Shown here piece after piece: positions 44,036 through 58,206 of a DNA stretch of 64,000 nucleotides (its first letter is position 1; the number at the start of each line of letters is the position of its first letter). The stretch comes from Unio delphinus (taxonomy: Eukaryota; Mollusca; Bivalvia; Unionida; Unionidae). The DNA lies in contig JAQISU010000115.1 of assembly GCA_029339505.1 (NCBI GenBank), forward strand, positions 11,681,001-11,745,000. Direction: 5' to 3'. Made by a program: the position numbers and the translations under genes. Below the pieces are notes generated by a model. It saw nothing but the letters and a program-made list of their open reading frames with translations. It searched no databases and had not been told where the DNA came from.

Positions 44036-44381
44036 TCATGCATTTAGTACTTCATGTAAACATTTCAAACGTGTGCCCCAAATCTACGCAAATAATCTTT
44101 GCTACACAAGAACAAAACGAACTAGGAACGAGTCATAATCATATATGAGGAAAACATACCATATCTAGGAATTATGCATCTGAGAGGAAAAAAAACTAAT
44201 TTATTTTCTAAAACAATAATCGGGAGATTTAATTGCAGCAAATGGATAGATTTTATTCAGTATGAAAATTTCGCTCACGACCATCAAATCTCATACATCT
44301 ATGAGTGTACATAGATTGACGGACGGACACACATACAGCCAGACACACAAACACAGACAGACACACATACACAGATAGATA
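44036..44381. other. Host flank of the Polinton
   Basis: AT-rich DNA ending in CACACA/GACA/GATA microsatellite-like sequence (about 44315-44381) directly next to the element's end. No gene is seen. Confidence 0.5.
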
Positions 44382-44660
44382 AGTAGTAATAGGGGGCACT
44401 ATAGCGTCAAGGGAAAATCCAGTCAAAAAGTGCTTGGGGCACTATGGCGTTAAGATTTATAGCGTCAAGGGAAAATCCAGTCAAAAACAGCTTGGGGCAC
44501 TATAGCGTCAAAACAGCTTGGGGCACTATAGCGTCAAGGGAAATGGAACAGGGTGGGTCTGTATAGCGTCAAGGGAAATGGAACATAGTGGGTCTATATA
44601 GCGTCAAGGGAAAGATAACAAGGGAAATATAACATGGGAAATAAAACAAGGGAAAAAAAG
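44382..44660. repeat. Left terminal/subterminal repeat region of the Polinton
   Basis: The phrase ATAGCGTCAAGGGAAA recurs at about 44401, 44459, 44528, 44561 and 44599, several times preceded by GGGGCACT, with a partial copy at about 44502. TCCAGTCAAAAA occurs twice and GGGAAAT/GGGAAA is further repeated at 44620-44655. Such iterated motifs at the end suggest binding sites for integrase, terminal protein or PolB. That they form part of a terminal inverted repeat is inference, since the other end is not visible. Confidence 0.7.
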
Positions 44661-44678
44661 GGCGGCAATGAAAGCTAC

Positions 44679-44692
44679 TATCTTTTCGAGAC
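44679..44692 (-). promoter_or_regulatory. Histone-downstream-element-like purine tract (gene 194 aa)
   Basis: On the minus strand CTCGAAAAGATAG lies about 10-20 nt after the stem-loop at 44701-44716. Its position and purine-rich core (GAAAAGA) match the element that base-pairs with U7 snRNA in histone pre-mRNAs. Confidence 0.55.
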
Positions 44693-44700
44693 CTATGAGT

Positions 44701-44716
44701 GGCCCTGAAAAGGGCC
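44701..44716 (-). terminator. Histone-type 3' stem-loop after the 194-aa gene
   Basis: Minus strand GGCCCTTTTCAGGGCC has a perfect 6-bp stem and the loop TTTC. It is preceded by CCAAA and followed by ACTCA. This equals the consensus of replication-dependent histone mRNA ends, including both flanks. It begins 17 nt after the TAA stop of the 194-aa gene. Expected function is SLBP binding and U7-guided cleavage without a poly(A) tail; that is inferred from the motif. Confidence 0.85.
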
Positions 44717-44733
44717 TTTGGATACTTCTTCTT

Positions 44734-45318
44734 TTATTTTCTGCCTTTGTTCCACCACCTTTTGATTTTACCAATAATTCCCTTCTTCTTCTTTTCTTCC
44801 TCGGGAATCCAGTCAGGATGTCCCATAGCTCTAAACTTCTCTTGTATCTTTATCCAATTGTTATTTAATCTTTCAAAGTCCTCTTTCTTTTTTTGGTTTT
44901 CATTGTCCTTTCTTTCCTTTCTCTCCTTACTCCAGTTATCTTTTATCTTCTTCACTTCTTCTAATAGTTCCTTTCTCATCAGTTCTTCAGCTTTCTTGAG
45001 CGGGTCCAAACCCTTTTGGACATGGGGGTACTCTGTCAAGATATTATCCAAAAAACACTTGACGTTTTCGACAATATCTATCACTTGCTTCAATGTCCCC
45101 ACTCTAACATAGGGTGGATTAATGCAGCCTCGTAACTTTTTGGCTTCTTCTTCTAGCATTCCTCCTAAGAGCTCCCTGGCTATTTTCAGTCTTTTTGCAA
45201 AGTCCAAACTCTTCGTAATCTTCCATTTATGATGTAGTTTTTCCACTTCATATTCCCCGTCTAATATCCAGAAATAGCTGTGTCTTAAATTGTTGAATAA
45301 ACTTGATGCTTTCGCCAT
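44734..45318 (-). CDS. Accessory helical Lys-rich protein, 194 aa
   Basis: I do not recognise this protein. It is predicted to be mostly helical and charged. Residues about 20-110 are a mixed region (YFWILDGEYEVEKLHHKWKI; KIARELLGGMLEEEAKKL). Residues about 110-165 are rich in Lys/Glu (KKIKDNWSKERKERKDNENQ), and the C-terminus is basic (KGIIGKIKRWWNKGRK), a possible amphipathic or nucleic-acid-binding tail. The start is the ATG at 45318, behind a TATATA box and the shared upstream element at 45378-45406. Its mRNA would end in the histone-type stem-loop at 44701-44716. It is the outermost gene at the left end. A regulatory, nuclear or host-interaction role is possible but not shown. Confidence 0.75.
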   Translation of the reverse strand: MAKASSLFNNLRHSYFWILDGEYEVEKLHHKWKITKSLDFAKRLKIARELLGGMLEEEAKKLRGCINPPYVRVGTLKQVIDIVENVKCFLDNILTEYPHVQKGLDPLKKAEELMRKELLEEVKKIKDNWSKERKERKDNENQKKKEDFERLNNNWIKIQEKFRAMGHPDWIPEEEKKKKGIIGKIKRWWNKGRK

Positions 45319-45362
45319 CTTCTATGGTTATTCCGTGGAATGGTTCTAATGTCAGTCACTTT

Positions 45363-45410
45363 GAGTATATATCTCTTAAGCACGGACGTGAAAGTAAACA
45401 CCCCCCTACA
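45363..45410 (-). promoter_or_regulatory. Promoter of the 194-aa gene: shared box plus TATA
   Basis: Reading the minus strand, GGGGGGTGTTTACTTTCACG followed by TCCGTGCTTAAGA precedes GATATATACTC. The box (GGGTGTTT...CACGTCCG.GCTT) matches the copies at 47701-47727 and 48480-48507, which also stand directly upstream of TATA-like sequences. Confidence 0.7.
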
Positions 45411-45424
45411 TTCACTTTTCATAT

Positions 45425-45547
45425 TATATACTATCCACAAACCATACTATATACTATCCAAAATCACACCCTATACTAACCACACACACGGGGAAGCAGC
45501 CAAAACACACCATACTATATACTATCCAAAATCACACCCTATACTAA

Positions 45548-45581
<34 letters not shown>

Positions 45582-45775
45582 GGAAGCAGCCAAAATACAC
45601 CATACTATATACTATCCAAAATCACACCCTATACTAACCACACACACACACACGGGGAAGCAGACAAAACACACCATACTATATACTATCCAAAATCACA
45701 CCCTATACTAACCACACACACGGGGAAGCAGCCAAAACACACCATACTATATACTATCCAAAATCACACCATAAG
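45425..45775. repeat. Minisatellite inside the Polinton
   Basis: Four to five units carry CATACTATATACTATCCAAA, ATCACACCCTATACTAACCA, (CA)n and CGGGGAAGCAG(C/A)CAAAACACAC. The internal CA run varies from 4 to about 14 units. It lies between the stem-loop of the 154-aa gene and the promoter of the 194-aa gene, and has no plausible coding function. Confidence 0.92.
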
Positions 45776-45831
45776 AGTCAGTGTTTATAATCACACTACT
45801 CCTCTCTCACACCCATTGGCAATTGACATAG

Positions 45832-45848
45832 TATTTCTTTTCTTGTTA
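45832..45848 (-). promoter_or_regulatory. Histone-downstream-element-like purine tract (gene 154 aa)
   Basis: Minus strand AACAAGAAAAGAAAT lies 8-23 nt beyond the stem-loop at 45856-45871. CAAGAAA(A)GA is close to the classical histone downstream element. It is the clearest of the three. Confidence 0.65.
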
Positions 45849-45855
45849 TTTGGGT

Positions 45856-45871
45856 AGCCCTGAGAAGGGCT
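45856..45871 (-). terminator. Histone-type 3' stem-loop after the 154-aa gene
   Basis: Minus strand AGCCCTTCTCAGGGCT has a 6-bp stem and the loop TCTC, keeping the conserved first and third U of the histone loop. It is preceded by AAAAAC and followed by ACCCA, the standard cleavage site. It starts 27 nt after the stop codon at 45899. Confidence 0.83.
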
Positions 45872-45898
45872 GTTTTTAAAACTTCAAATTGCACCTGG

Positions 45899-46363
45899 TT
45901 AATGCTGGCATCTCCCAGGTCTAGCCCCACACACACATCTCCTACTCCAATCATTCTCCCAATTCACTCTTGTGATTGGGAGTGCAGAGGGAGAATGAGT
46001 GGCTTCACTATCCCAATCTTCTGTTTGAGGGATAGTGAAAGTCTCTTCATTTCTGCCTCTATTCCGCAACCGTGGATGAGGCTGTGGTTGTTGCGGCTGA
46101 GGCAGTGGGGGCTGCGCCTGTAGTGGACGAACTGGTTCTGGTGAAGGTGTCCTCACTATAGGCTTGACTTCACTAGTTTGCCTCATCATGCGGTGAGGCA
46201 AAATTGACATTTTCATTTCCTTCTCCTCTTCTTTCTTTTTCCTCTCCTCCTCTTCTTTAATTCTGGTCTCTTCTTCTTCGGCCTCCATTGCCAGTTCGTC
46301 CAGGAGACGTCTAGCATTCTCCAGATGCATTTGAAGTTCTCTTAATTTCTGTACTCTATTCAT
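45899..46363 (-). CDS. Accessory coiled-coil protein, 154 aa
   Basis: I do not recognise this protein. Residues 1-55 form a strongly predicted coiled coil (KLRELQMHLENARRLLDELA followed by a Glu/Lys run). Residues 75-105 are Pro/Gln-rich (PLQAQPPLPQPQQPQPHPRL), and the C-terminus ends with a Cys-containing tail (RRCVCGARPGRCQH). The start is the ATG at 46363. The leader contains GTCTGGCTACC, shared with the other two left-end promoters, but the GGGGTGTTTTC box is not obvious here. The mRNA would end at the histone-type stem-loop at 45856. The N-terminal heptads weakly resemble those of the 121-aa gene (R..KL.E....L...R..L), so the two may be paralogues. Confidence 0.72.
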   Translation of the reverse strand: MNRVQKLRELQMHLENARRLLDELAMEAEEEETRIKEEEERKKKEEEKEMKMSILPHRMMRQTSEVKPIVRTPSPEPVRPLQAQPPLPQPQQPQPHPRLRNRGRNEETFTIPQTEDWDSEATHSPSALPITRVNWENDWSRRCVCGARPGRCQH

Positions 46364-46390
46364 CTTTGGTGTTGATGCGCCAACGATAGG

Positions 46391-46402
46391 TAGCCAGACT
46401 GA
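46391..46402 (-). promoter_or_regulatory. Shared leader motif TCAGTCTGGCTA
   Basis: Minus strand TCAGTCTGGCTACC lies upstream of the 154-aa gene. The same CAGTCTGGC occurs at 47667-47675 and 48445-48453, about 20 nt after a TATA-like sequence in those two cases. TCAGT(C/T) fits an initiator, so this may mark the transcription start. Confidence 0.5.
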
Positions 46403-46419
46403 TTGATTGATTGATATGA

Positions 46420-47660
46420 TAAGTTTAAAGTGAATCGTCCACTTGGGCTCTTTTCACTGTTTTATCCCTCAAAGGAGGGTTATTTACTTTATCCTGAGGG
46501 GAAGGAATCGTGCCACATCCCCTGCAGGCATTTATGCACTCATAGAGTGCTATTTACTTAGGCCATCACCACTGGGCAATACATGTACTGCCTCTGGGTG
46601 TGACTTCGGCCGTCACCACGGGCAATAATTGTACTACCCGGGTGAGTGTAAGGCCATAAGCCATAGGCCATAGGGTGGGTAGGAATGGAACCTACTCACA
46701 CCCACCCCTATCATTCTGTTACCTACCGATCTGCAAGAGCAGTGGAGCGAGAGAAAATTAGTTTTCTCATATCGCTTATGTCGGCGTAATGTGGTCGTGC
46801 AAGCACGAGAAATTACGGCAGCAGGGAGTAAAGGTGATGAAAGCCAAGCGCTCACCTGTATATCAAATTCAGTCCAGTTATACTAATGGACAACCTAACA
46901 ACCAATAATGTGTAAGCCACCTGTGTAATTTACCAAATATCTAAGTTATAAAAAATATTGTTTAACCATCCTAGCAAAAATAGGGACTAGTACTAAAGCG
47001 TACATACGTAAGTCCCTATTGTATTTAACTAAGGTGTCTAAGCGACACATATAAGTGTAGTCAATGGTAGGGAATTTTGGTTATGAATTTGTTGCAGTAG
47101 CCAATAAGGTCAAATTATTCCTTTCAGGGCCATAAGGTTAGTCAAAGAGGGCTACTCGATACCAAATGAGTACCCTATTTTTCCGGCAATTGAAAGCAGC
47201 GAGATTGAGGGTCATCTGTGCTCCGCAGCAGGCTTCGACGTCGGTGTGCAGTCGGTGGTGGTCACAGTGTTTCTATGGCCTCCTGTTATCCCTCTGCAAT
47301 TTGGTCTTCTACTCCGTTGTTATCTGGTTCGACGAAAGGTTTAGTCCACATGGAGTTCCGCCATTTTCGCCCAAGCAGTAGTGACTCTGCCAAACGCATG
47401 CAGAGTCGTGCTTGAGCGGCCATCTTGTTCGTCCACGTGGTGCCATTTCTAGTCAACGAAGTAGAAGATTCCACAGCGGTCTTTCTGGCGGCTGGATTTA
47501 CAATGGTGAAGTCTCAGCTCCTTGCTACTCCTTGGGTGCTTTCTGTTTAGTCACTCCTAATGGGTAGCATTTATCCATTGTCCCATGCTCACTCTTGAGA
47601 GCCCGCTGTCCCGGTCCGTCCTGCTCGGTGTTCAACTGCTGAATGTATGTATGGTATGGT
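46420..47660. other. Polinton region without a clear gene
   Basis: This 1.2-kb stretch follows a complete shared promoter (47660-47730), yet no long ORF or domain is seen. Short minus-strand frames exist (for example MDKCYPLGVTKQKAPKE near 47575-47525, and a frame beginning MAPRGRTRWPLKHD near 47442). Imperfect repeats GGCC(A/G)TCACCAC(T/-)GGGCAATA lie at about 46561 and 46607. An imperfect inverted repeat with arms AATAGGGACT/AGTCCCTATT lies at about 46978-47031. It may hold a decayed accessory gene, a spliced gene or a non-coding transcript. No intact histone-type stem-loop was found on the minus strand here. Confidence 0.5.
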
Positions 47661-47730
47661 ATGGTAGCCAGACTGACGAGTGCTTTTTTATATATAGCAC
47701 AAGCGCGGACGTGATGGAAAACACCCCCTA
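47660..47730 (-). promoter_or_regulatory. Orphan copy of the shared accessory promoter
   Basis: On the minus strand GGGGGTGTTTTCCATCACG and TCCGCGCTTGTGC are followed by TATATATAAAAAAGC and, about 20 nt later, TCAGTCTGGCTACC. It matches the promoter of the 121-aa gene almost base for base across the box, TATA and leader motif. A further partial box (GGGGTGTTTTC, then TAAGTCCGCG) lies just upstream at 47775-47802. No convincing ORF follows. Confidence 0.7.
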
Positions 47731-47968
47731 GATCCAAAAACTTACATTATCCCTATCATTACCAAAAAAACAAAACACGCGGACTTAAAAGAAAACACCC
47801 CACACTTTTATACTTGACTCATAATAATTATACATTTAACAAGTTATTTTGAAAAAAAAATACGCTGTGCTTATAGACGCACTTCAAAACAAAAGTAAAA
47901 TGAGATAGTGATTATAGACTCACTTCTATTTTTTTCTAACTTCCTCACATACCATGAGCAAATTGAAT
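47731..47968. other. Spacer between accessory transcription units
   Basis: AT-rich spacer that contains the partial box at 47775-47802. It ends at the downstream-element-like tract of the 121-aa gene. No gene is seen. Confidence 0.5.
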
Positions 47969-47987
47969 GATTAATTCTTTTCGAGAA
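47969..47987 (-). promoter_or_regulatory. Histone-downstream-element-like purine tract (gene 121 aa)
   Basis: Minus strand TTCTCGAAAAGAATTAATC lies about 10-25 nt after the stem-loop. The CTCGAAAAGA core is the same as that behind the 194-aa gene. Confidence 0.55.
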
Positions 47988-47995
47988 TATTGGGT

Positions 47996-48011
47996 AGCCC
48001 TGAAAAGGGCT
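47996..48011 (-). terminator. Histone-type 3' stem-loop after the 121-aa gene
   Basis: Minus strand AGCCCTTTTCAGGGCT has a 6-bp stem and the canonical TTTC loop. It is preceded by CAAAAC and followed by ACCCA. It begins 36 nt after the stop codon at 48048. Together with the loops at 44701 and 45856 this makes three of three left-end accessory genes. Confidence 0.86.
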
Positions 48012-48047
48012 GTTTTGTGTGTGTGTACGAGGAAGGATGGCAATCTT

Positions 48048-48413
48048 TTATCGTCTAAGATTGCGTCCTCGTTTGGCTACACGATAGGGTCTGCTTCTTC
48101 GGAAAGAGAAAGAGAACTCTTTCGTATCCACACGACAGTCGACAAAACTTCTGTCTGGGTCCTGTTGCTGTTGTTGCTGTTGCTGCTGCTGCTGCTGTTC
48201 TCTCTGCTCTCTCTGCTGCTTTTGAAGTCGATACTTCTCAGTCCATTCATATTTCTCTTTTGGAATTTCCTCTCTGAAGAGTTCTTCTATGAGGTCTTCC
48301 GTTTCTTGTAGCATTCTCACATTCTCTATCTCTTCAGGCTTTGGCATCAGATTGTGTCTGATACGATGCAGAGTGACATAAGCTTCGTTCAGCTTAGCTA
48401 ATCTTGAGCACAT
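48048..48413 (-). CDS. Accessory poly-Gln coiled-coil protein, 121 aa
   Basis: I do not recognise this protein. The start is the ATG at 48413; the open frame extends upstream but that part lies across the promoter. Residues 1-60 are helical with heptads (RLAKLNEAYVTLHRIRHNLM; VRMLQETEDLIEELFREEIP). A Gln-rich run follows (QREQREQ then about 12 Gln, a CAG/CTG-type microsatellite at about 48163-48198). The C-terminus is Arg-rich (FRRSRPYRVAKRGRNLRR), a likely nuclear or nucleic-acid-binding tail. It has a shared promoter upstream and a histone-type stem-loop downstream. It is the first of the left-end accessory genes after the protease. Confidence 0.74.
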   Translation of the reverse strand: MCSRLAKLNEAYVTLHRIRHNLMPKPEEIENVRMLQETEDLIEELFREEIPKEKYEWTEKYRLQKQQREQREQQQQQQQQQQQQDPDRSFVDCRVDTKEFSFSFRRSRPYRVAKRGRNLRR

Positions 48414-48440
48414 CTTCGTAGGAGGATGAGTCAAACAATG

Positions 48441-48508
48441 GATGGCCAGACTGGAGACTACCCCTGCTTTATATGGTTCAAGCGCGGACGTGATGGAAAA
48501 CACCCCTC
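48441..48508 (-). promoter_or_regulatory. Promoter of the 121-aa gene: shared box, TATA, leader motif
   Basis: On the minus strand GGGGTGTTTTCCATCACG and TCCGCGCTTGAAC precede CATATAAAG and, about 20 nt later, CCAGTCTGGCC. It is nearly identical to the orphan promoter at 47660-47730. Confidence 0.75.
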
Positions 48509-48632
48509 GACGGTTTAGGGTTTTGAAACGTTTAGATAGTTTGATGTGAGGGATAGAAAGAAAAGTCAAAGAGCATTTATATGAATACAAATATAAAATA
48601 AACGACAGACGCATTGGTTTTCAAAACACAAC

Positions 48633-48725
48633 ATTTTTATTCAAATAACAAACATTATTTCAAACAACAAACATTATTTCAAAGAACAAACATTCTTCCA
48701 AAGAACAAACATGTTTTTCTTCCAT
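48633..48725 (-). terminator. Poly(A) signal of the protease gene and short repeat
   Basis: On the minus strand AATAAA occurs at about 48636-48641, after four copies of an ~18-bp repeat (TTTGAAATAATGTTTGTTG variants, 48647-48710). The capsid/protease transcript thus appears to end by ordinary polyadenylation, in contrast to the accessory genes to its left. Confidence 0.55.
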
Positions 48726-48737
48726 AACACTAATACA

Positions 48738-49295
48738 TTATCTTTGACATGGTTGACAACGTTGTGAATTAAATTGAGATTTCCACTGTTGGAAGTCATT
48801 GGGCGATTGATGTACACTACGTTTCCTAGCTAAAGACAACAGATAGCCATAATGGTCACAAAACCATCGATCTACTTTGTCATCGTTTCGAGACGAATGA
48901 CGATCAAAATAAGTCACTAAATGTTCTAAAGAATATCCAAGACTGCGATGATGCAGATAATAGATACAATATTGTCCACACACCATAGAATCTGTGCTTT
49001 GTAATTTCACATTATTGAATCGTGTCGTCTGGGCATTTCTTCTCATAAAGTCGATGATATCATCTTCGAAAGGAGGAAATCCATACGAATCAAAATACTC
49101 CGCACATCCCTCTTGAGGAAAGTAGACTGCTACCCAGTGAGTTCCTGGAAGATGACTGTCATCTGTGTTGATGACATAAGCTTGATTCTCTTGAGGTTTG
49201 CGATGAGGTAGTTCATCTTTAGCACACACCACAGGATTCCAAGAAGCAGTGTACGAACTACGGTTCAAAAGATAATAAAGTTCCCAAGTATCCAT
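48738..49295 (-). CDS. Adenain-like cysteine protease, 185 aa
   Basis: This is the Ulp1/adenovirus-protease-type (C5/C48-like) maturation protease of Polintons. It is expected to cleave capsid and core precursors inside the particle. The start is the ATG at 49295; the longer frame to 49334 begins with GTG. The catalytic set is visible: His53 in GTHWVAVYF, Asp69 in EYFDSYG, Gln99 in KLQSTDS, and Cys106 in VCGQYCIYYL. The Gln-to-Cys spacing of seven and the His at position 53 closely match adenain (His54, Gln115, Cys122). The C-terminal third (RKRSVHQSPNDFQQW) is divergent. It is the last gene of the capsid cassette and is followed by a poly(A) signal. Confidence 0.93.
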   Translation of the reverse strand: MDTWELYYLLNRSSYTASWNPVVCAKDELPHRKPQENQAYVINTDDSHLPGTHWVAVYFPQEGCAEYFDSYGFPPFEDDIIDFMRRNAQTTRFNNVKLQSTDSMVCGQYCIYYLHHRSLGYSLEHLVTYFDRHSSRNDDKVDRWFCDHYGYLLSLARKRSVHQSPNDFQQWKSQFNSQRCQPCQR

Positions 49296-49330
49296 TTTTT
49301 GTTGTGTAGCCTTGTGTTTTTTCCTTTTTT

Positions 49331-49828
49331 TCACAGGTGATGATAAGTCATCAATTCAATCCAGACTTTTTGTTTGAAACGGTCTGACAAGTAACTGATG
49401 GTTTGCTTCGTCTCTTTACTTTTGGCCAAGAGAGCTTCGATGCGATCGATTTCTCGAGCAAACAATGGAGGAGAGGAATGATCACGTAAGCCTTTATACC
49501 ACTGAAGTAACACGTCTTCTTCGGAGATGAGACTCCAAGCTTCGTTCAGATAATCGTCCAATTTTTCTTCTTGACTCATCATCATACATTTATCGTGTTG
49601 AATTTGACTGGGATGATCGATTTGACATCCATAACAATCTTTTTTAATCATGTCCCTCATTTTATCTTCCAAGTGTTGTGCAAAACAAGCCACTAACTGT
49701 TGTTCCTGCTCTGGCCATCTGGATTGCATGATCACTACTTCTTCTTTTTGGTCTTGAGGGTTTGCTTTTTCTGTAACCTTCCATTCCATGGATTCTCCAC
49801 TATTCAAAGAAGGACAAGAGTTTTCCAT
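49331..49828 (-). CDS. Polinton conserved Cys/His protein, 165 aa
   Basis: Function unknown. This small protein regularly accompanies the major capsid gene in animal Polintons. Its signature is the Cys/His cluster CYGCQIDHPSQIQHDKC (Cys65, Cys68, His72, His78, Cys81), which could bind a metal. It is flanked by helical stretches (QQLVACFAQHLEDKMRDMIK; EKLDDYLNEAWSLISEEDV). The start is the ATG at 49828, six bases after the capsid stop at 49834, and its end overlaps the GTG-start extension of the protease frame. The tight spacing suggests it is expressed with the capsid genes. Recognition is from memory of the family, not from a search. Confidence 0.78.
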   Translation of the reverse strand: MENSCPSLNSGESMEWKVTEKANPQDQKEEVVIMQSRWPEQEQQLVACFAQHLEDKMRDMIKKDCYGCQIDHPSQIQHDKCMMMSQEEKLDDYLNEAWSLISEEDVLLQWYKGLRDHSSPPLFAREIDRIEALLAKSKETKQTISYLSDRFKQKVWIELMTYHHL

Positions 49829-49833
49829 AGTGT

Positions 49834-51183
49834 CTAATAGTCTAGAATGACTTCTCTCAAACTGTTGATTTCTATGGTATTATCGAATTCGGCATACAGA
49901 ATGACATTCACCGTATGGAGAAGAGCTGGTGAAAACTGAAGTTCCACACGTATCTGCCCAGATTTTATAGGGTGGAAATGTCCCTCGTCACTGCCTTGGT
50001 CTGGAGTGAAATCAAAAGCCCACAACGCGTAACCTCCTGCATAATCGTCGTAGGAAATACCGTGACTGGTGTTGGTTCCTAACTGTCCTGTGGCTTCGTA
50101 CAGTGACAAGTACGACCTCAAGTAATTCTTCGCGGCAAACTTGGGTTCGAAGGGCCTGGTACACAAAGTTTTGCCATCGCGACTGACTTCGATTTTGGAT
50201 ACATTGTAGTGCTTAAACTCGAAAGGATTTTGAGTGTAGGCACCGTTGAAGGCTGCATTGCTGACGATACCAATGAATAAACGTTTGGGTAACTGTCCTT
50301 GGAACAGATGATCTTCGATCTTAGATTGGAGTCCAGCGGCAATGGTGAACGTTTTGACTTCCACGCGTCGTATCGGATACTTGGCTGTCGTTCTGCTCAA
50401 AGTGTGACTGATATCATTTCCCACTTTAGGTAACACTTCCACACGACGCACGTATAACTTGGCTTCTTGGATACTGGTTTTACAGTGGTGAGTGTGCTGA
50501 TTAGGATCAGCAGGTTCAGTAGCCATGAAATGGAAAGCAGCACTGCTACGATTTAGTCTCAAGCGAATATCCACCCCGTTCAGCAAATACTTCTCTTGAA
50601 ACCACATGTCCAAATGCAAACGATCGCACAGTTCTAAACTACGTCCAAGAATTTTTTTTCGACGATCGTTAAAACCCACATTGTGAGAGGTAACAGTGCC
50701 ATTATCTGCTACTACGGTCAAGGCTGTGTCGTTAAACTTTTCTGCGGTGTCAGGTTTCCATACCACGCAAGCATCTAAATGAGTGTTCTTGGCTTCTTTT
50801 CCGTACGTCAAGAGATTTTCGAGGTACGCTCGGTAAGGGTAAGTATCCATGCTACTGCTGACCAGTTTGTTATTCATGTACAAATCCACTTCGCTGAACA
50901 AGGAATGCATGAAATTGTTGACGGGAGCTGATTGGGTATCGTCTGCTAGAGCGGAGCCGTCCGTTTTGGTGACTTTCACTTTCAAATACAAGTAACTGTT
51001 GTTGAGATCGATGTAATCTTCGGGTTGTCCTTTGATTTCAAACTCGATGGGAGCTGAATCAGTCAAAGAGGAGACGGGATGAAATTCGACCCATTGGGCT
51101 TCTTGCATGGTCGTCATGGTGGGTGGCATGGCAAAGAGATCTAGTTCCGACTTGGAACAGGCACAAGATTCTTGGTGCATCAT
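49834..51183 (-). CDS. Major capsid protein, double jelly-roll (hexon-like), 449 aa
   Basis: This is the main capsid protein of the Polinton/adintovirus lineage, widespread in animal genomes as 'F54H12.2-like' proteins. The typical N-terminal pattern is seen: EFHPVSSLTDSAPIEFEIKG, then YIDLNNSYLYLKVKVTK, VNNFMHSLFSEVDLYMNNKL and SSSMDTYPYRAYLENLLTYG. Later come WFQEKYLLNGVDIRLRLNRS and a C-terminal YDDYAGGYALWAFDFTPDQG with HPIKSGQIRVELQFSPALLH. The length is in the usual 450-600 range, at the short side. The ATG at 51183 is followed by a second Met. It should assemble as trimers into an icosahedral shell with the penton-like protein at 51659. The frame is complete. Confidence 0.92.
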   Translation of the reverse strand: MMHQESCACSKSELDLFAMPPTMTTMQEAQWVEFHPVSSLTDSAPIEFEIKGQPEDYIDLNNSYLYLKVKVTKTDGSALADDTQSAPVNNFMHSLFSEVDLYMNNKLVSSSMDTYPYRAYLENLLTYGKEAKNTHLDACVVWKPDTAEKFNDTALTVVADNGTVTSHNVGFNDRRKKILGRSLELCDRLHLDMWFQEKYLLNGVDIRLRLNRSSAAFHFMATEPADPNQHTHHCKTSIQEAKLYVRRVEVLPKVGNDISHTLSRTTAKYPIRRVEVKTFTIAAGLQSKIEDHLFQGQLPKRLFIGIVSNAAFNGAYTQNPFEFKHYNVSKIEVSRDGKTLCTRPFEPKFAAKNYLRSYLSLYEATGQLGTNTSHGISYDDYAGGYALWAFDFTPDQGSDEGHFHPIKSGQIRVELQFSPALLHTVNVILYAEFDNTIEINSLREVILDY

Positions 51184-51210
51184 TTTTTCTTTATGTTTTT
51201 TTCTTCACTT

Positions 51211-51651
51211 TTAATAATCAAAAATGTCTAAGTCTCGAGAGGTTCTTTTTTTCTTCGTCTTTCTCACTTTAGAGGTACGGAGACTTTTGAAAGGGTGCCT
51301 TCGTCGTCGCTTTCTACCTTGTCCTTGCTGTGTCGTCAGGGAAGCAGGAATGTCAGACTCGGTACCGTTCAGGGCATTTATAGGACTTTCTCGTCGACCC
51401 AAAATCTCTTTGCCCGTTTGAAGCAAGACATTTTTGCCTGCTCTCAAAAAAGCTTCTTTGGGGTTTTGTTTGTCAATGAGAACATTGTGAAGAAAATCTT
51501 TGCCGTGAGTCAATGCGGCATCTTTTAAGGCGTGCAATCCTCGTGTCACCATCGGTTTCAAAACAGGGACCACAGAACGAAAGGCTGATTTAAACATATC
51601 TCCTAAACCATGTCCTCGTTGTCGAGCGACTCCTCGGTACACAGGATACAT
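51211..51651 (-). CDS. Small capsid-associated protein (pVI/pX-like), 146 aa
   Basis: This protein belongs to the Polinton family with the opening 'YPVYRG..RQRGHGLG' (residues 2-17). An amphipathic helix region follows (FKSAFRSVVPVLKPMVTRGL). A middle part contains DKQNPKEAFLRAGKNVLLQT, and the C-terminus is highly basic (GRKRRRRHPFKSLRTSKVRK). By analogy with adenovirus minor proteins, the first part may act on membranes or hexons and the tail may bind DNA; that is inference. The start is the ATG at 51651 (the frame to 51654 begins with GTG). It lies between penton (7 bases away) and major capsid genes and is a likely protease substrate. Confidence 0.82.
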   Translation of the reverse strand: MYPVYRGVARQRGHGLGDMFKSAFRSVVPVLKPMVTRGLHALKDAALTHGKDFLHNVLIDKQNPKEAFLRAGKNVLLQTGKEILGRRESPINALNGTESDIPASLTTQQGQGRKRRRRHPFKSLRTSKVRKTKKKRTSRDLDIFDY

Positions 51652-51658
51652 CACTTTT

Positions 51659-52597
51659 TCAGTTGTTCGAGAATCGTTTTTGAAAATGGAGTTTCACTGT
51701 GACTTTCCCTTTGGTAAATGGAATATTTTGTCCTAGTTCTCCTTTTATAGTAATGTTGACACTGTCGAAATACGACTTACTCACAGGTAAATAATGAGGA
51801 TGTACAAATTCACGGTGAACGTGATAGGTATTTCCACCTTCCTCGTCAGCGGTGACGGCAGAATCCACTTTGAAAGGAATGACACGTAGTAACGGTACAG
51901 AGGTGTGTCCTACCACGTTGTACTCTACCACATCGGAGTACACAAACATCAAGTTGAGTCCTTGGTTCAATTCTACAGGGAATCGAAAATATCTTGCAAA
52001 CATGATGTTACTGGTTATGGATGGTATTTGCTTTTTGTTCTTGAGCATCTCGACGTCTCCACCTAAAATCTCAAACAATTCAGGACAAAAGGTAATGCCT
52101 ATCATTTCATCCTCTGGAAATTTGATCATGAGACGACGAGCCACTGAATAGTACTCAAAGGTAACACTTTTTCTGACGGGTAGTTTATCCAGGGCTTTAC
52201 CAAACACAGCATTAAACCTGGCAGCAAGTGTAGTCACTAAATGTTGACCACTAAAATAATAGCCTGGAGGAATGCTGATCACATGTTTGGACAGGACTTT
52301 AGTTGTGGGTCCATCTGATTTCTTTGTGTCAATGCCAGTGATGCCTCGTTCGATTAAGGCTTGTTGCAATTGCTCGTCTTTCACTTCTACTGTAAAACTG
52401 TTTTGATTTTCGACGATGTTTTTGATTTGTGACGGGTGTATTATTTCCACTAAAGCCACTTCCCAATGAGCATCTTGATCCAAATGCATGGCTTGAGGTA
52501 ATTTAGCTGTGTAACAGCACAACGTGTTGTTAGGAAACACCTTCATGGAACTGTCACTGGGTAACGTTAAGTAAAATTGGTTAATAGTGTTGTTCAT
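51659..52597 (-). CDS. Minor capsid protein (penton-like), 312 aa
   Basis: This is the single jelly-roll vertex protein of Polintons/adintoviruses. Family hallmarks are the N-terminal FYLTLPSDSSMKVFPNNTLC followed by YTAKLPQAMHLDQDAHWEVA and LVEIIHPSQIKNI, the middle YYFSGQHLVTTLAARFNAVF, and the C-terminal VHREFVHPHYLPVSKSYFDS with INIKGEL-like and KVTVKLHFQKR. It is expected to form pentamers at capsid vertices with the major capsid protein at 49834. The start codon overlaps the stop of the upstream membrane-protein gene (ATGA, 52597-52594), an arrangement suited to reinitiation or a shared transcript. Confidence 0.88.
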   Translation of the reverse strand: MNNTINQFYLTLPSDSSMKVFPNNTLCCYTAKLPQAMHLDQDAHWEVALVEIIHPSQIKNIVENQNSFTVEVKDEQLQQALIERGITGIDTKKSDGPTTKVLSKHVISIPPGYYFSGQHLVTTLAARFNAVFGKALDKLPVRKSVTFEYYSVARRLMIKFPEDEMIGITFCPELFEILGGDVEMLKNKKQIPSITSNIMFARYFRFPVELNQGLNLMFVYSDVVEYNVVGHTSVPLLRVIPFKVDSAVTADEEGGNTYHVHREFVHPHYLPVSKSYFDSVNITIKGELGQNIPFTKGKVTVKLHFQKRFSNN

Positions 52598-53013
52598 AAT
52601 TCCAATGTTGTTCTGTCCGAGGAGTCACTCGAGGTTAAAGGAGTATCTAAAAGAGGATTGTGATTGGAAGGGTGACTGTCAGGAGAATGACTAACGTTGG
52701 ACGCAAGGCTCCCAATATTGTTACTGTTGTTCCCGTTGTAAGAGTATTTCAGGGAAGGATTGGGAAGAAGATACCCGATGCAACTGCTGAGTAAAATAGT
52801 CCACAATTGTTTGTCTCCTTGTTGCAAACTCAAATTAGCAATGGCTGCACCGATAACACAATACACCACAAAGATTTGACAGAAAAAGACGATTTGGGTT
52901 TTAGGGACACGTTCTCCACACCACACCCACAAGGGTTGCTTTTGTAAATCTTGCAGAGATGACGTGGGTGAAGGAGTAGTCACTGTGGTTGCTGAAGCTG
53001 TATTGAAGGGCAT
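52594..53013 (-). CDS. Two-helix membrane protein of Polintons, 139 aa
   Basis: Function unknown, but the core region recurs in animal Polintons: VPKTQIVFFCQIFVVYCVIG followed by AAIANLSL (membrane segment about 36-63), a short polar loop, then LWTILLSSCIGYLLPNPSLK (segment about 70-88). The N-terminal 20 residues are Ser/Thr/Pro-rich and the C-terminal 50 residues are Asn/Ser-rich and probably disordered. The start is the ATG at 53013; the frame to 53022 begins with GTG. A TATAAAAAG box lies at about 53024-53033. The stop overlaps the penton start. It may sit in an internal membrane or help assembly or exit; this is not shown. Confidence 0.82.
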   Translation of the reverse strand: MPFNTASATTVTTPSPTSSLQDLQKQPLWVWCGERVPKTQIVFFCQIFVVYCVIGAAIANLSLQQGDKQLWTILLSSCIGYLLPNPSLKYSYNGNNSNNIGSLASNVSHSPDSHPSNHNPLLDTPLTSSDSSDRTTLEL

Positions 53014-53018
53014 GATGG

Positions 53019-54131
53019 TCACTTCTTTTTATAGTCGATGACTTGGGCAGCGTCAATCCAAGAATCAAAACTAGAAGGATATCCTTTCCAACGTACTTTG
53101 ACTTCTTTGACACGACGTTTTCCTACTTTACGGGTTCTTCGTTCGAGAATGCTTTCAATGTCGTACACGTCGTCTTCTTTTTTGGTGACACGTTGTAACT
53201 CAGGCAAGTAAAACGTTCCTTTTAATACTTCTCCGTTCATGTCTTCCAATTTATAGACGGTAGGATGACGGCCACGCACTCGTTCAGTAACACGAAACAA
53301 TTCGGTGGTCCAATTGGGTAAGTAACCTTTGTCGAAAGTGCGTTTGGTTTTACCAATGCGTACCCAATCTCCCGGGGTTAACACTTCTCCACCTTTCTTG
53401 GGGACAGCCCTCGTTCGGGACGTACCAAACAGACGCTCAAAAACAGTCACTTCGTTGTCGGGTGTCACCTCTTGTGGGGCACGTCCAATGCTTCTATGGT
53501 AAGATTGATTGTAGGCTTGGACTAAGTGCGGTAAGACGTCGATGTACTTGAGAGTGTGTTGATGCGTAAAATATTTCCACATGCGTTCTTTCAAGGTACG
53601 TTGAAAACGTTCCACGATACTGGCTTTGGTTTCAGGATTTTCGGTGGTGAAAAAATGAATGTCACGTTTCTTTAATTCTCGTTGGAAAGCTTGGTTTAGA
53701 AATTCGGTGCCTTTGTCGGTTTGCCATCGAAGAGGGTGACGACCACTTTGTTTCAACACCAGTTGCAAAGCTCGTACTAACTCTCCGCTCGATTTGGATG
53801 TCAATGGTACGACCCAGGCAAATTTAGAAAAGACGTCGATGACACAAAACAAATATTTGTAGCCACGATTGTAGGTGGCTAAATGAGAGACATCGGCTAA
53901 ATCGGCTTGCCATTGATGATCGATGCCTTCCACTTGAGTGCGACTTCTGTGAAATTTTCGTCGAATGGGTTTGTGTAAAGTGTACGTCGCTTGTTCTTGT
54001 AACCATCGTTGTACTGTAGGTAAACGGAGCTTTTTCAAGCGAGTTTTGGCAGCACGATACAATTTCTGAATGCCTCCGTAACCTGCAGGGTGAGCTGGAT
54101 CGTAATAAATGCTGGCTAAGACCTTCTCCAT
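53019..54131 (-). CDS. Retroviral-type integrase with chromodomain, 370 aa
   Basis: This DDE-superfamily (rve) integrase catalyses insertion of the element's linear DNA. The catalytic triad is visible: Asp77 in WQADLADVSH, Asp139 in WQTDKGTEFL, and Glu174 in KASIVERFQR, with Asp-Glu spacing of 35. An N-terminal helical part (residues 1-65, GYGGIQKLYRAAKTR) precedes the core. An SH3-like part (about 250-315, GDWVRIGKTKRTFDKGYLPN) follows, and a C-terminal chromodomain (about 320-368) carries YDIESILERRTRK and VRWKGYPSSFDSWI. The chromodomain suggests targeting to modified histones. Start ATG 54131, nine bases from the preceding gene. No key residue is missing. Confidence 0.95.
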   Translation of the reverse strand: MEKVLASIYYDPAHPAGYGGIQKLYRAAKTRLKKLRLPTVQRWLQEQATYTLHKPIRRKFHRSRTQVEGIDHQWQADLADVSHLATYNRGYKYLFCVIDVFSKFAWVVPLTSKSSGELVRALQLVLKQSGRHPLRWQTDKGTEFLNQAFQRELKKRDIHFFTTENPETKASIVERFQRTLKERMWKYFTHQHTLKYIDVLPHLVQAYNQSYHRSIGRAPQEVTPDNEVTVFERLFGTSRTRAVPKKGGEVLTPGDWVRIGKTKRTFDKGYLPNWTTELFRVTERVRGRHPTVYKLEDMNGEVLKGTFYLPELQRVTKKEDDVYDIESILERRTRKVGKRRVKEVKVRWKGYPSSFDSWIDAAQVIDYKKK

Positions 54132-54139
54132 GGTTTAGG

Positions 54140-54874
54140 TTAATAAGTGACCCACTCTTCGAGGATATTGCTTTGGGTGGGACGAAATGCGGGTTGTTTG
54201 GAAACGGTTTTACGTGTCCGATGTGCCACAGGAGTTGACGTCGAGGGTGCTGGTGGTGGTGGTGGTGGTGGCGGAGGTAATGAGATAGCTTTGGTCTTCT
54301 TTTCTTTTCTCACCTCTGGTTTCCTTTCTTTCTTTTTCACTTCTGTTGAAGCAGGAGTAGCCATCATCTTTTTAACCCAAGTTTTGAGTTCTTCTCGTTG
54401 GGGCGTGGGAGAAGGGGTCAATAAGGAAGCGGCAATCTTACTCGGAATGGGAGTAGCAGTGGGTGTTTGAAAGAGATCATGGGGTTCTTTTTCTTCCTTG
54501 GGTAATGGTGGGGTGACGTCTGTTTTGGCTACTGTAGAGGGTAAAGGCGACGGATTATTCATTAGTGCCTTCAAATCGGACAGTGTGGGTAGAGCTGTTT
54601 GTTCCACAGCTTTTCGATGAAAGAGTTGTAGTCGTTGCAGAAGTTGACCGTACTTTTGCGATTTTTCGGTTTCGGACAAATCGTGGCGATGCAGCAAGGA
54701 TTGCAATTCGTGTTGTAATTGGGACATCTCGTTCAAATCAGGGTTGGGTGGTAAATGGGGGGTACGTTGTTCTTGCCAACGATGGTATTCCATCCATCGT
54801 TTGTAAGGAACTAAAGTCAGTTTTCGTCCTTCCATGGGCTTCCAAAGGTTACGTCTGAGATCGTGGTGCTTCAT
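54140..54874 (-). CDS. Polinton conserved Pro-rich protein, 244 aa
   Basis: Function unknown. The N-terminal part is a recurring Polinton module: RRNLWKPMEGRKLTLVPYKR, then WMEYHRWQEQ and DLNEMSQLQHELQSLLHRHD with LSETEKSQKYGQLLQRLQLF (helical, about residues 45-95). The middle is Pro/Thr/Ser-rich. Residues about 165-205 are Lys/Glu-rich, a run of nine Pro follows (codons near 54255-54281), and the tail ends ILEEWVTY. It stands just before the integrase gene in the same direction. A GATAAAAGG box (about 54881-54890) lies only a few bases from the ATG at 54874. A virion-associated role is plausible from context only. Confidence 0.8.
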   Translation of the reverse strand: MKHHDLRRNLWKPMEGRKLTLVPYKRWMEYHRWQEQRTPHLPPNPDLNEMSQLQHELQSLLHRHDLSETEKSQKYGQLLQRLQLFHRKAVEQTALPTLSDLKALMNNPSPLPSTVAKTDVTPPLPKEEKEPHDLFQTPTATPIPSKIAASLLTPSPTPQREELKTWVKKMMATPASTEVKKKERKPEVRKEKKTKAISLPPPPPPPPPAPSTSTPVAHRTRKTVSKQPAFRPTQSNILEEWVTY

Positions 54875-54911
54875 GGATCCCTTTTATCTTCTGGAAGGAT
54901 CATACATATTG

Positions 54912-55400
54912 CTACCCATACCTTGGGGCCATCCCTTGGTGCATCCCTGGGGCCATCCCTTGGTGCATACCTGGGGACATCCCTTGTGTCATCCCTTGTA
55001 AAAAACCTGGTAATATGCTGGATAGGATACCGGATTTCGCTAATCCTCCCAACACAGGAAGAAGAAAAGGTAAAATTCCTCCGCGTTGCACCAACATTTT
55101 TTTCTTTTGACGGACGGGTATTTTCTTTTGGACCATTTGACGAAGAACGTGTCGATGTTTGGCTAAGCATTTTTTCTGGTGTGAAGACAAAGGTATCGTG
55201 CCTTTCAAGACATTCAAACAACATTCGCACACGGTATCGATGATATCTTTGGAAGCCGTTTTAATGATTTGTTTTCGCATGGGTGGAGAGGCTTTGGACA
55301 GGACAGACAACACGTCTCCGTGTTTGACCAAACGAGGAGGTAGTCCTTTCTTTTTCTTTCCTTTGTGAGGTGTAGAAAAATATTTTCTGCGAGGTGACAT
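54912..55400 (-). CDS. Core-like GG-motif protein with Gly/Met tail, 162 aa
   Basis: This basic protein belongs to a Polinton family marked by a helix and 'KKKMLVQRGG' followed by a hydrophobic stretch. Here that is HRHVLRQMVQKKIPVRQKKK then MLVQRGGILPFLLPVLGGLA (about residues 98-135). The N-terminus is MSPRRKYFSTPHKGKKKKG. A middle domain contains MRKQIIKTASKDIIDTVCEC, and the tail is an imperfect repeat of GM(A/S)PGMHQ. The start is the ATG at 55400 (the longer frame starts with GTG). A GATAAAAGAG box lies at about 55454-55463. It is a paralogue of the 76-aa gene at 55458-55688. A DNA-condensing core role, like adenovirus pVII/pX, is inferred from the charge and context. Confidence 0.8.
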   Translation of the reverse strand: MSPRRKYFSTPHKGKKKKGLPPRLVKHGDVLSVLSKASPPMRKQIIKTASKDIIDTVCECCLNVLKGTIPLSSHQKKCLAKHRHVLRQMVQKKIPVRQKKKMLVQRGGILPFLLPVLGGLAKSGILSSILPGFLQGMTQGMSPGMHQGMAPGMHQGMAPRYG

Positions 55401-55457
55401 CTTTGCTTGTTCGTTCCACAATACCACTGACGTTCATGACTTGAAACACACCCTCTT

Positions 55458-55688
55458 TTATCTTTTTTTTTGTTGTGCCATCACTTGATTTATAAGCGGT
55501 ATCACTTTTTCTGGAAAGAGATCATGGGGTAGGAAAAATCCTCCGCGTTGTACCAGCATCTTTTTCTTTTGACGGACGGATATTTTCTTTTGGGTCTTTG
55601 GACGATGAACGTGTCGATGTTTGGCTAAACGTCCTTTCCTTTTCTTTCCTTTGTGGGGTGAAGAAGAATGTTTTCTGCGAGGTGACAT
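55458..55688 (-). CDS. Core-like GG-motif protein, short paralogue, 76 aa
   Basis: This gene starts with MSPRRKHSSSPHKGKKRKG, almost the same as the neighbouring 162-aa protein. It jumps directly to LAKHRHVHRPKTQKKISVRQ and KKKMLVQRGGFFLP, so the middle domain of the longer paralogue is missing. The C-terminus (HDLFPEKVIPLINQVMAQQK) is different. The leader and TATA-like region (GATAAAAGAG at about 55742-55751) also match the upstream region of the 162-aa gene. It therefore arose by tandem duplication with internal deletion, or the reverse. Very basic; probably a particle core protein. Confidence 0.78.
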   Translation of the reverse strand: MSPRRKHSSSPHKGKKRKGRLAKHRHVHRPKTQKKISVRQKKKMLVQRGGFFLPHDLFPEKVIPLINQVMAQQKKR

Positions 55689-55763
55689 CTTTGCTTGTTC
55701 GTTTCACAATATTACTAGTGTCAATGACTTGGTACACACTCTCTTTTATCTACTTTTTGGGAA

Positions 55764-55991
55764 CTACCGCTTCGTCAAAAAGGTAACAATGTCTTTCACA
55801 AAATTACCAAAGGATCCTCCTTTTTGGTGACTCTTCTTTTTCTTTAAAAGACTACGTCTTTGGAGGAAAGGACGTTGATGTTTGGTTTTAAAGCTTTTGG
55901 TACGATGACGAGATTGTCTTTTTCCTTTTCCTTTTTGGGCAGCAGAACGACGAGGGTGGTGGTGGTGGTGTGCACGTTTTTGAGGAAGCAT
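55764..55991 (-). CDS. Small His/Lys/Arg-rich core-like protein, 75 aa
   Basis: A short, extremely basic protein: MLPQKRAHHHHHPRRSAAQK, then KGKRQSRHRTKSFKTKHQRP and KKKKSHQKGGSFGNFVKDIV with TFLTKR. It ends in a GG followed by a short amphipathic helix, the same layout (basic, GG, hydrophobic) as the other core-like genes, though without the VRQKKK motif. A TATAAAAATA box lies at about 56051-56060, well placed for its own transcript. It resembles protamine or adenovirus mu-type proteins in composition. Homology cannot be claimed by eye. Confidence 0.7.
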   Translation of the reverse strand: MLPQKRAHHHHHPRRSAAQKGKGKRQSRHRTKSFKTKHQRPFLQRRSLLKKKKSHQKGGSFGNFVKDIVTFLTKR

Positions 55992-56055
55992 CCTTGAGTG
56001 TTCAGCAGTGGTACAGAAAAATACTGATTGACGTCGTGGTCTTCAAGTCATATTT

Positions 56056-56955
56056 TTATACTGGAATGCGACGCCACTGATTATCTTTGCGTCGTATCAA
56101 CTTCATGGCAGGTAACACACGTCGTGAAGGAGTTCGCAATGGACTCAATCGGGACAGTTCTTGTTTGGACAAATCTAGTAAACTCTTTAACATGCCAGAT
56201 CTTTCTTGGACTTTGACTTTCGGGGCAGGTACTTTGTGAGCAGCTGCTACTGCCGCTAAGGTGGACGAGGGTGTCTCCGGTGGAGGAGACGTTTTGGGAG
56301 ACGCAGATTTCCAATGTTTCATCAAATTAGGAAAAATGGGTGCCAAATTGGGTTTGGCTGGCATCACCCGCAACGGAGAAGTGGCAGTCCCTGAGGCTAC
56401 TGGCAACGTAGTCCCTGCCAAACGTCCTTGTAGATCTTTTCTTACAGGTCGTGGTTGACGAAGGTAAGGTTGTGTCCTGACCGAAGTGCCTCTTTTGCGG
56501 GTGACCGCTTTTGTCTGTGGACTTTTCTTTTTCTGTGTTTTGGTCTTGGATCCCTTGTTCTTTTTCTTTGGGGCTTGTTTGGCTTTTTTTGTTTTCTTCT
56601 TGGGGTGAACTTTGGGAGTATTGGGATCCCATTTTAAAAGGGAACGAATGATGACACGTCCTAGAGAACCACTACCTCCAGGTTTCAATATGATTTGCTT
56701 TTTGGTGTGAGTGTCAATGCGAGGATTGGCCAGTTGCGTCAAGGCTACTTTGTTTCTGTCAAAAAAGCGTTTGGTTTGATGTGGAATGTGAATGATGCCT
56801 TGCAGTATTTGACGTGCTGTCACCGTAAACCATCGTAAGACTTCTTTGAGACTGGCTTCTAAGACGTGAGCACGTCTTTGTGGATTTTTTTCGCGACTGA
56901 TGCCGTACAAGGCACGAATCAATTTGATCGGAAGATGAGACTGAAGGGACGTCAT
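56056..56955 (-). CDS. Large basic core-like protein with GG motif, 299 aa
   Basis: A three-part protein. Residues 1-95 are a folded-looking helical domain: SHLPIKLIRALYGISREKNP, RRAHVLEASLKEVLRWFTVT, RQILQGIIHIPHQTKRFFDR. It ends in VALTQLANPRIDTHTKKQII and LKPGGSGSLG, a match to the 'K+..L...GG' motif of the smaller core-like proteins. The middle (about 110-175) is very Lys/Thr/Pro-rich (PKKKTKKAKQAPKKKNKGSK). The C-terminal part is Pro/Ala/Ser-rich and ends basic. The start is the ATG at 56955 (the longer frame begins with TTG). A TATAAAAACC box lies at about 56993-57001. Probable DNA-binding virion component, by inference. Confidence 0.75.
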   Translation of the reverse strand: MTSLQSHLPIKLIRALYGISREKNPQRRAHVLEASLKEVLRWFTVTARQILQGIIHIPHQTKRFFDRNKVALTQLANPRIDTHTKKQIILKPGGSGSLGRVIIRSLLKWDPNTPKVHPKKKTKKAKQAPKKKNKGSKTKTQKKKSPQTKAVTRKRGTSVRTQPYLRQPRPVRKDLQGRLAGTTLPVASGTATSPLRVMPAKPNLAPIFPNLMKHWKSASPKTSPPPETPSSTLAAVAAAHKVPAPKVKVQERSGMLKSLLDLSKQELSRLSPLRTPSRRVLPAMKLIRRKDNQWRRIPV

Positions 56956-57024
56956 GTTGACGATGTATGAGACCAGGTCAAAGTAACCCAAGGTTTTTAT
57001 AGATTTTTTTAGTGCTTCATAGTG

Positions 57025-57756: not shown

Positions 57757-57800
57757 AGTCGTGTAGTGGTATGATACGATTGACACAAAAACAGACAAGA

Positions 57801-57833
57801 GGTTTTTATACTTTTTTCAAGACACGTTTATTT
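57801..57833 (-). promoter_or_regulatory. Overlapping poly(A) signal and TATA box
   Basis: On the minus strand AATAAA (57828-57833) serves the 120-aa gene that ends at 57844. TATAAAAACC (57801-57810) serves the ATPase gene that starts at 57756. The two signals sit about 20 bases apart. Confidence 0.55.
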
Positions 57834-57843
57834 GAATGCATGT

Positions 57844-58206
57844 TTAAATTTGAACAACACGAAAACATAAAAGCCAAATGGATAAATACAGGAATAAAAT
57901 ACCTAGGCAAACGATCAAAGTGGAATATAAACAAGTCACTGTACAACGTGGTTTGGGTAACGAAGGTGTTCTAGAGGTAGTATGTAATGTTCTTATAGTC
58001 TCCTCTACAGGGGGTACAGTCACATAGGTGTCTTCTCGAAAGGGTCTTTGTGGGGGAATGTCCATGACAGTTCTGTCTTGAACAGAAGGATTGTCTTGGG
58101 TGATAGATTCTTTTTCTTCTTCTTCTTCTGGTACTGTTACTAACACAGGATTAAAAGTGACTTTTTTCACACGACGATGAATTTTAGGAACACAACGCTT
58201 GGGCAT
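57844..58206 (-). CDS. Small tail-anchored-type protein, 120 aa
   Basis: I do not recognise this protein. The start is taken at the ATG at 58206; the open frame extends to 58287 but that part overlaps the 82-aa gene. The N-terminus is basic (MPKRCVPKIHRRVKKVTFNP). An acidic Glu run follows (PEEEEEKESI), then a Pro/Thr-rich stretch. The C-terminal 25 residues are a strong membrane helix (LYSTLIVCLGILFLYLSIWL) ending FRVVQI. This topology fits a tail-anchored membrane protein. It overlaps the end of the 82-aa gene by 23 bases and is followed by a poly(A) signal at 57828. Confidence 0.65.
   Translation of the reverse strand: MPKRCVPKIHRRVKKVTFNPVLVTVPEEEEEKESITQDNPSVQDRTVMDIPPQRPFREDTYVTVPPVEETIRTLHTTSRTPSLPKPRCTVTCLYSTLIVCLGILFLYLSIWLLCFRVVQI

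Follow-up and report, generated by a model that had tools for sequence, protein, structure and literature searches.

A 64,000-nucleotide (nt) stretch of the genome of the bivalve Unio delphinus (assembly GCA_029339505.1, contig JAQISU010000115.1, positions 11,681,001 to 11,745,000 of the forward strand; the window) contains most of a Polinton, a virus-like mobile element, and raises the question of why genes that encode no histone should end in the stem-loop of replication-dependent histone mRNAs. An earlier reading of the letters alone (the sequence-only reading) had found such hairpins behind the three left-end genes of the element and proposed that the element has put a gene set under host S-phase 3'-end control. 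The three left genes hold, and the set grows to five: all five outermost genes (g1–g5) have histone-type 3' ends, with g4 and g5 situated past the end of the window. We consider it highly probable that these five genes, none of them a histone, are built for expression via the histone route. The element, its end genes and their 3'-end signals are as follows.

44382..64000 in the window, continuing to 66228 beyond it (locus L032, position 3228), minus strand: Polinton, ~21.85 kb overall
44382..44716, no strand: left terminal inverted repeat, 335 bp, from comparison with the right repeat
44734..45318, minus strand: g1, 194 amino acids, predicted helical
44701..44716, minus strand: g1 histone-type 3' stem-loop GGCCCTTTTCAGGGCC, pattern match and RF00032
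44681..44687, minus strand: g1 histone-downstream-element core GAAAAGA, 13 nt past the stem
45899..46363, minus strand: g2, 154 amino acids, no meaningful Pfam match
45856..45871, minus strand: g2 histone-type 3' stem-loop AGCCCTTCTCAGGGCT, pattern match and RF00032
45836..45842, minus strand: g2 GAAAAGA core, +13
48048..48413, minus strand: g3, 121 amino acids, no Pfam family
47996..48011, minus strand: g3 histone-type 3' stem-loop AGCCCTTTTCAGGGCT, pattern match and RF00032
47976..47982, minus strand: g3 GAAAAGA core, +13
Past the window end, adjoining g5 and in the opposite direction to it: g4, 214 amino acids, with its own hairpin and GAAAAGA
Right end, past the window: g5, 77 amino acids, basic, its hairpin inside the right terminal repeat

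The three 16-base hairpins were recovered as exact matches at the positions reported earlier, on the coding (minus) strand and 17, 27 and 36 nt past the stops of g1, g2 and g3, respectively. The Histone3 covariance model (RF00032; curated cut-off 34 bits), which the sequence-only reading had named as its test, agrees at g1 and g3 (34.9 bits each, E about 2e-6 in 64 kb) and falls short at g2, the middle hairpin, which scores 33.2 bits and misses the cut-off by 0.8 bit; this shortfall is not telling, because the host's own H4 hairpin is likewise not listed above the cut-off. At up to three mismatches the 16-base pattern has four sites in the window (the three exact ones and one with three mismatches), a count reached in 0 of 100 shuffles. 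Five hairpins in the window have a GC-rich 6-bp stem and a loop beginning with TxT, and only those of g1–g3 are followed by GAAAAGA 10–25 nt downstream. The spacing of GAAAAGA past the stem is exactly +13 in g1, g2 and g3 and +14 in g4, and no AATAAA occurs within 400 nt downstream of g1–g3. The left and right terminal repeats are identical from the tip through the hairpin, stopping at its inner, gene-side edge, so that one hairpin and its GAAAAGA, being inside the repeat, serve g1 at one end and g5 at the other. In sequence, each end gene has a histone 3' stem-loop together with a host-type downstream element (GAAAAGA at +13/+14). As had been claimed, the encoded proteins are not histones: no histone family is found among the matches of g1–g5.

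The host's own histone genes provide the yardstick. A genome-wide RF00032 search returned at least 74 matches, a lower bound since 75 of 434796 candidates were scored. Among the best 30 loci, 27 match a gene of the window Polinton and 29 have no core histone match in 3 kb, the remaining one (L009) containing a partial H2B. Six further matches, spaced ~6.8 kb apart on one contig, mark the host tandem histone repeat (10 kb read), the unit of which is 6817 bp and holds H2A, H1, H3, H4 and H2B, with H3 and H4 identical to the query histones. RF00032 matches above the cut-off in these 10 kb are H2A (two copies), H1, H3 and H2B; H4 is not listed. The host hairpins are followed at 13–14 nt by GAAAAGA (H1, H3, H4 and H2B) or GAAAAAGA (H2A). 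According to the relevant passages of PMC7026596, the 5' end of U7 small nuclear RNA pairs with the downstream element and cleavage takes place between the stem-loop and that element. A TTGC stretch lies further downstream in three of the five host histone genes (L031), and likewise 12–14 nt past GAAAAGA in g1–g3. Naming a histone donor gene through comparison of the 50-nt flanks with each host histone gene was too noisy and was abandoned.

The likeness to host histone genes extends to the promoters of the three left genes.

45380..45401, minus strand: g1 histone-type promoter module, three mismatches
47703..47724, minus strand: g2 histone-type promoter module, exact; a second copy with four mismatches at 47777–47798
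48482..48503, minus strand: g3 histone-type promoter module, exact, with a TATA-like box after the module

At up to five mismatches this 22-mer is found in the window only at 48482, 47777, 47703 and 45380, in each case ahead of one of g1–g3; a Markov control gave one match in 20 × 64 kb. The 22-mer of host H1 is the same as that of g2 and g3 (one position being A or C), while host H2A differs at one position, host H2B at two and g1 at three. A TATA-like box stands closely downstream of the module in both g3 and host H1. No match to the module was found in host H3 and H4, and g4 and g5 are without it in the same way. These two genes share a divergent promoter (L032 2415–2632; window 65415–65632) with CCAAT-type boxes and TGACGTCA. 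The module common to g1–g3 and host H1, H2A and H2B is a new addition to the hairpin observation, made by comparison of the sequences. It also bears on the third gene, for which the sequence-only reading had given a start at 48614; because the g3 module sits at 48482–48503, the start is probably 48413. Around 1300–1800 of locus L042 lies an open frame that is retroelement-like by eye, with CCHC knuckles; the DNA coding for its repeated ADVVENT-type peptide closely resembles the histone promoter module.

Both signals are abundant in the 2.5-Gb genome. A 20-base form of the promoter module occurs 3607 times (reversed control, 0) and the hairpin core with GAAAAGA 3574 times (control, 2). The first 30 module sites fell into 11 elements and one other locus, which, with 3607 sites in all, suggests that elements number on the order of 1300. 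In the 11 elements located by promoter, the g3 hairpin is present in all 11 and the g2 hairpin lies at the expected distance in seven; the loci of the other four include no g2 3' end, which matches the window, whose g2 is displaced by 1.26 kb. As a guard against circular counting, the loci examined were also searched for copies by coding sequence, dropping those lacking more than 12 C-terminal residues or with less than 90 nt past the stop. For g2, all 17 distinct 3' regions found in this way carry the hairpin (six with one or two mismatches) and 16 carry GAAAAGA; for g3, 11 of 12 copies carry the hairpin, one with a mismatch. The hairpin is present in 20/20 copies of g1 and 6/6 of g5, with GAAAAGA in 17/20 and 4/6, respectively. 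Six unusual sites combining the hairpin with GAAAAGA were inspected, five of which are diverged copies of g2, g3 or g4; the sixth (L206, around 1381) has no match to element genes or core histones.

As judged from the alignments, the hairpin is clearly conserved among g2 copies, but its conservation does not reach significance in g3 and is patchy in g4. In 20 g2 sequences, minority letters occupy 14 of 320 positions in the hairpin and one of 129 in GAAAAGA, both below the pooled level of the untranslated region, the spacers and the downstream sequence (p 9e-5 and 1e-5); the tests for g2 and g3 ignore the relatedness of the copies. Across 17 distinct hairpins (element, host and L077, a distant Polinton described below), 93.1% of the pair cells pair and eight hairpin cells are changed on both sides, neither value being reached in 500 shuffles. 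Ratios of nonsynonymous to synonymous substitution rates (dN/dS), calculated from distinct copies with a matched start and an open frame (11/12 for g3 and 3/12 for g2) and excluding pairs with dS of 0.02 or less, are 0.23 for g3 (11 sequences, 46 pairs) and 0.24 for g2 (three sequences, two pairs), indicating that both genes are under purifying selection.

A search of other collections with an alignment of the family-B DNA polymerase (PolB) gave nine loci (two from IMG/VR and seven from GTDB). The sequence-only reading had proposed running RF00032 on other animal Polintons; among these nine the model found one match, in L077 (35.8 bits). This contig is filed under a Bacteroidia bin and is presumably animal DNA carried along into it. 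Identities between L077 and the window are 42% for PolB (C-terminal piece), 34% for the integrase, 31% for the putative capsid protein and 30% for the protease. Close to the end of the contig, its hairpin lies 28 nt past the stop of a C2H2 zinc-finger gene (Pfam E 3.5e-11); purine-rich sequence follows the hairpin, and TGACGTCA and an ATTGG box stand upstream of the gene. The same arrangement on a different gene of a distant Polinton speaks against a one-off. The copy of TGACGTCA upstream of this zinc-finger gene is at L077 7870–7970. Searches of viral contigs with the window PolB, the g1 alignment and the exact hairpin pattern gave no matches. The bare 16-mer occurs in 36 + 89 stretches of IMG/VR (116 of the 125 examined as loci), and these look like chance occurrences because none of the 116 loci has histone-like flanks. 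No report of histone-type promoters or 3' ends in Polintons was found among the papers listed in the literature searched, and a search for the histone stem-loop with non-histone gene, virus, transposon or SLBP gave nothing on point, subscription papers being mostly outside both searches; the relevant passages of PMC11071296 make no mention of histone-type ends on Polinton genes.

Taken as a working scheme, SLBP would bind the hairpin of each end gene, and the U7 small nuclear ribonucleoprotein (snRNP) would pair with GAAAAGA and direct cleavage between the hairpin and GAAAAGA. The products would be mRNAs lacking poly(A), which would build up in S phase as histone mRNAs do. The end genes would then act while the host replicates its DNA, a time when replication could also be profitable for an element with its own polymerase. 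On this view the genes of the element would fall into two classes, with regulatory genes of histone type at the ends and ordinary genes in the core. The proposal of a virus-like element with a gene set under histone-type 3'-end control is supported at the level of sequence because GAAAAGA at the host spacing, the host promoter module, g4 and g5, thousands of genome copies and the distant Polinton agree, and also because a hairpin is present in g2 and g3 copies for whose detection that hairpin was not used.

Several points weigh against this account. Binding of SLBP, pairing with U7, cleavage, mRNAs free of poly(A) and their limitation to S phase are all points that we infer from sequence signals, and the pairing of U7 with GAAAAGA in particular rests on likeness to the host histone genes. 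One g3 copy (L025) has no hairpin, and with this decayed copy included (15 sequences) neither the g3 hairpin (p 0.29) nor its GAAAAGA (p 0.06) differs significantly from the flanks. The g4 hairpin is intact in only two of six distinct copies; in L013 its 3' arm is deleted, and three copies on one contig are without it in the stretch read. The complete counts for g1 (20/20) and g5 (6/6) are not independent, because these copies came largely through the hairpin. Two-sided change affects three of the six stem pairs, a number equalled in 40 of 500 shuffles. The other eight PolB contigs have no RF00032 match; several of them are short and may stop before the end of an element. On the right side, the first gene inward of the end genes, which encodes a CCHC zinc knuckle, has no hairpin. 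Finally, AATAAA follows within 400 nt only two of 15 core open reading frames, so that the contrast between core and end genes rests mainly on the absence of hairpins from the core: no RF00032 match was reported there in the window scan (PolB, integrase, ATPase, protease, putative capsid protein, BIR protein and others).

Three other explanations deserve consideration. In principle a histone-type 3' end need not bring histone timing with it, and g4 and g5 have such an end with no histone promoter module. The end genes might use it as a poly(A)-free terminator, which could keep transcripts compact, stabilise them, aid their export or free them from poly(A)-dependent control, with expression not limited to S phase. 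We regard this as unlikely, as the host histone promoter module on the three left genes would be hard to explain if a terminator alone mattered. The g1/g5 hairpin at the inner edge of the terminal repeat could instead suggest that the hairpins work at the DNA level, as terminal-repeat components with a role in transposition or replication, their likeness to histone signals being incidental; this is very improbable given that the hairpins of g2, g3 and g4 are internal, on the coding strand and just past a stop, with GAAAAGA at +13/+14 as in host histones. It is equally hard to credit that a captured host histone 3' end was spread by copying as a functionless passenger. Common ancestry of the copies, decay of some stems and the lack of significant extra conservation in g3 would fit such a history, but the signal stands on five unrelated genes with paired stem changes, the g2 hairpin and GAAAAGA are conserved, the genes are under purifying selection and a distant Polinton has the same arrangement on a different gene. 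Expression of the end genes via the histone route remains our preferred explanation. On balance we also favour, with less assurance, the wider view that animal Polintons from more than one lineage disguise regulatory genes as replication-dependent histone genes by their 3' end and partly by their promoter, placing a regulatory phase in S phase via SLBP and the U7 snRNP, with the histone locus body perhaps also involved.

The rest of the element is that of a Polinton, with a family-B DNA polymerase of the viral, protein-primed kind, a retroviral-type integrase, terminal inverted repeats and a 6-bp target duplication, and runs 2.2 kb past the end of the window.

44376..44381, no strand: target-site duplication TAGATA, left copy; the right copy is directly past the right end, outside the window
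46402..47662, no strand: 1.26-kb stretch in the 5' region of g2, flanked by two copies of CAGTCTGGCTACC
48636..48641, minus strand: AATAAA, 96 nt past the protease stop, between the core block and g3
48738..49295, minus strand: adenovirus-type protease, Pfam E 0.008, below the cut-off; homologous to an L077 protein
49834..51183, minus strand: putative major capsid protein, 31% identity to L077 4113–5399
53019..54131, minus strand: integrase, rve and chromodomain, rve E 1.5e-12
57025..57756, minus strand: A32-type packaging ATPase, Pox_A32, above the cut-off
59097..59762, minus strand: BIR-domain (inhibitor-of-apoptosis) protein in the core block, domain match
59798..63868, minus strand: family-B DNA polymerase (DNA_pol_B_2), PF03175 E 5.6e-42
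L032 1002–1460 (window 64002–64460), opposite strand: CCHC zinc-knuckle gene, between PolB and g4

The product of 49834..51183, assigned solely through its homology to an L077 protein, is putatively the major capsid protein, a name given from the usual gene content of Polintons. Relatives of PolB are 42–58% identical (best 120 of 2273) and many of the named ones are from bivalves; genomes with such relatives include those of oyster, mussel, sea cucumber and insects. The AATAAA between the core block and g3 lies 137–138 nt upstream of the g3 module in all 12 copies examined. The stretch at 46402..47662 is probably a later insertion that displaced g2. Elsewhere in the genome, a decayed H4-like stretch (L040 257–436; 41% over 80 amino acids) adjoins a Polinton end and by eye displays many T-to-C-like differences. 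At L033 1423–9251, an outward-facing pair of g1-type ends ~7.8 kb apart, with frames between them that are reverse-transcriptase-like by eye, was read as a shortened or rearranged element.

As for the end-gene products, g1 has 13 relatives on short contigs (48–85%) and a helical predicted structure with a mean predicted local distance difference test score of 80; a comparison of this model with the PDB gave nothing better than E 0.068. The 19 relatives of g4 are 58–98% identical, and 17 aligned sequences (including 16 of the 19 relatives) share two stretches, one acidic-aromatic and invariant (NWD.VDFL.SQEF.P), the other basic and conserved (PKR.RPSRAK), which together suggest a nuclear regulator.

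The life cycle of Polintons in animals is largely unknown, and the arrangement described here suggests that this element borrows the cell's DNA-replication-time gene programme. If so, non-histone genes with a histone 3' end in a virus-like element would break the rule on such ends, and one genome would contain non-histone animal protein-coding genes using that 3' end in element copies estimated to number a thousand or more. A selfish element would be reading the host S-phase programme, for three genes at promoter and 3' end both, and would offer a natural test of the sequences sufficient for histone-type expression as well as a testable gene-timing scheme for Polintons.

Compared with known systems, the end genes are closest in their signals to replication-dependent animal histone genes (RF00032; SLBP/U7), with which they have in common a 6-bp stem, a 4-nt loop, an A-rich 5' flank, AC past the stem and a purine core at +13/+14, and, for g1–g3, the lack of AATAAA within 400 nt and a promoter module also present in host H1, H2A and H2B; they differ in that their proteins are not histones and the genes lie in a mobile element. 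DNA viruses whose early genes are coupled to the host cell cycle would be alike in having regulatory genes on during host DNA replication; the cases known to us use promoters or drive S phase rather than employing the histone 3'-end signal. With Polinton/Maverick elements and the related adintoviruses the window element has in common PolB, the rve integrase, the A32-type ATPase, a likely protease and capsid protein, terminal inverted repeats and a 6-bp target duplication, and it is set apart from them by end genes with histone-type promoters and 3' ends.

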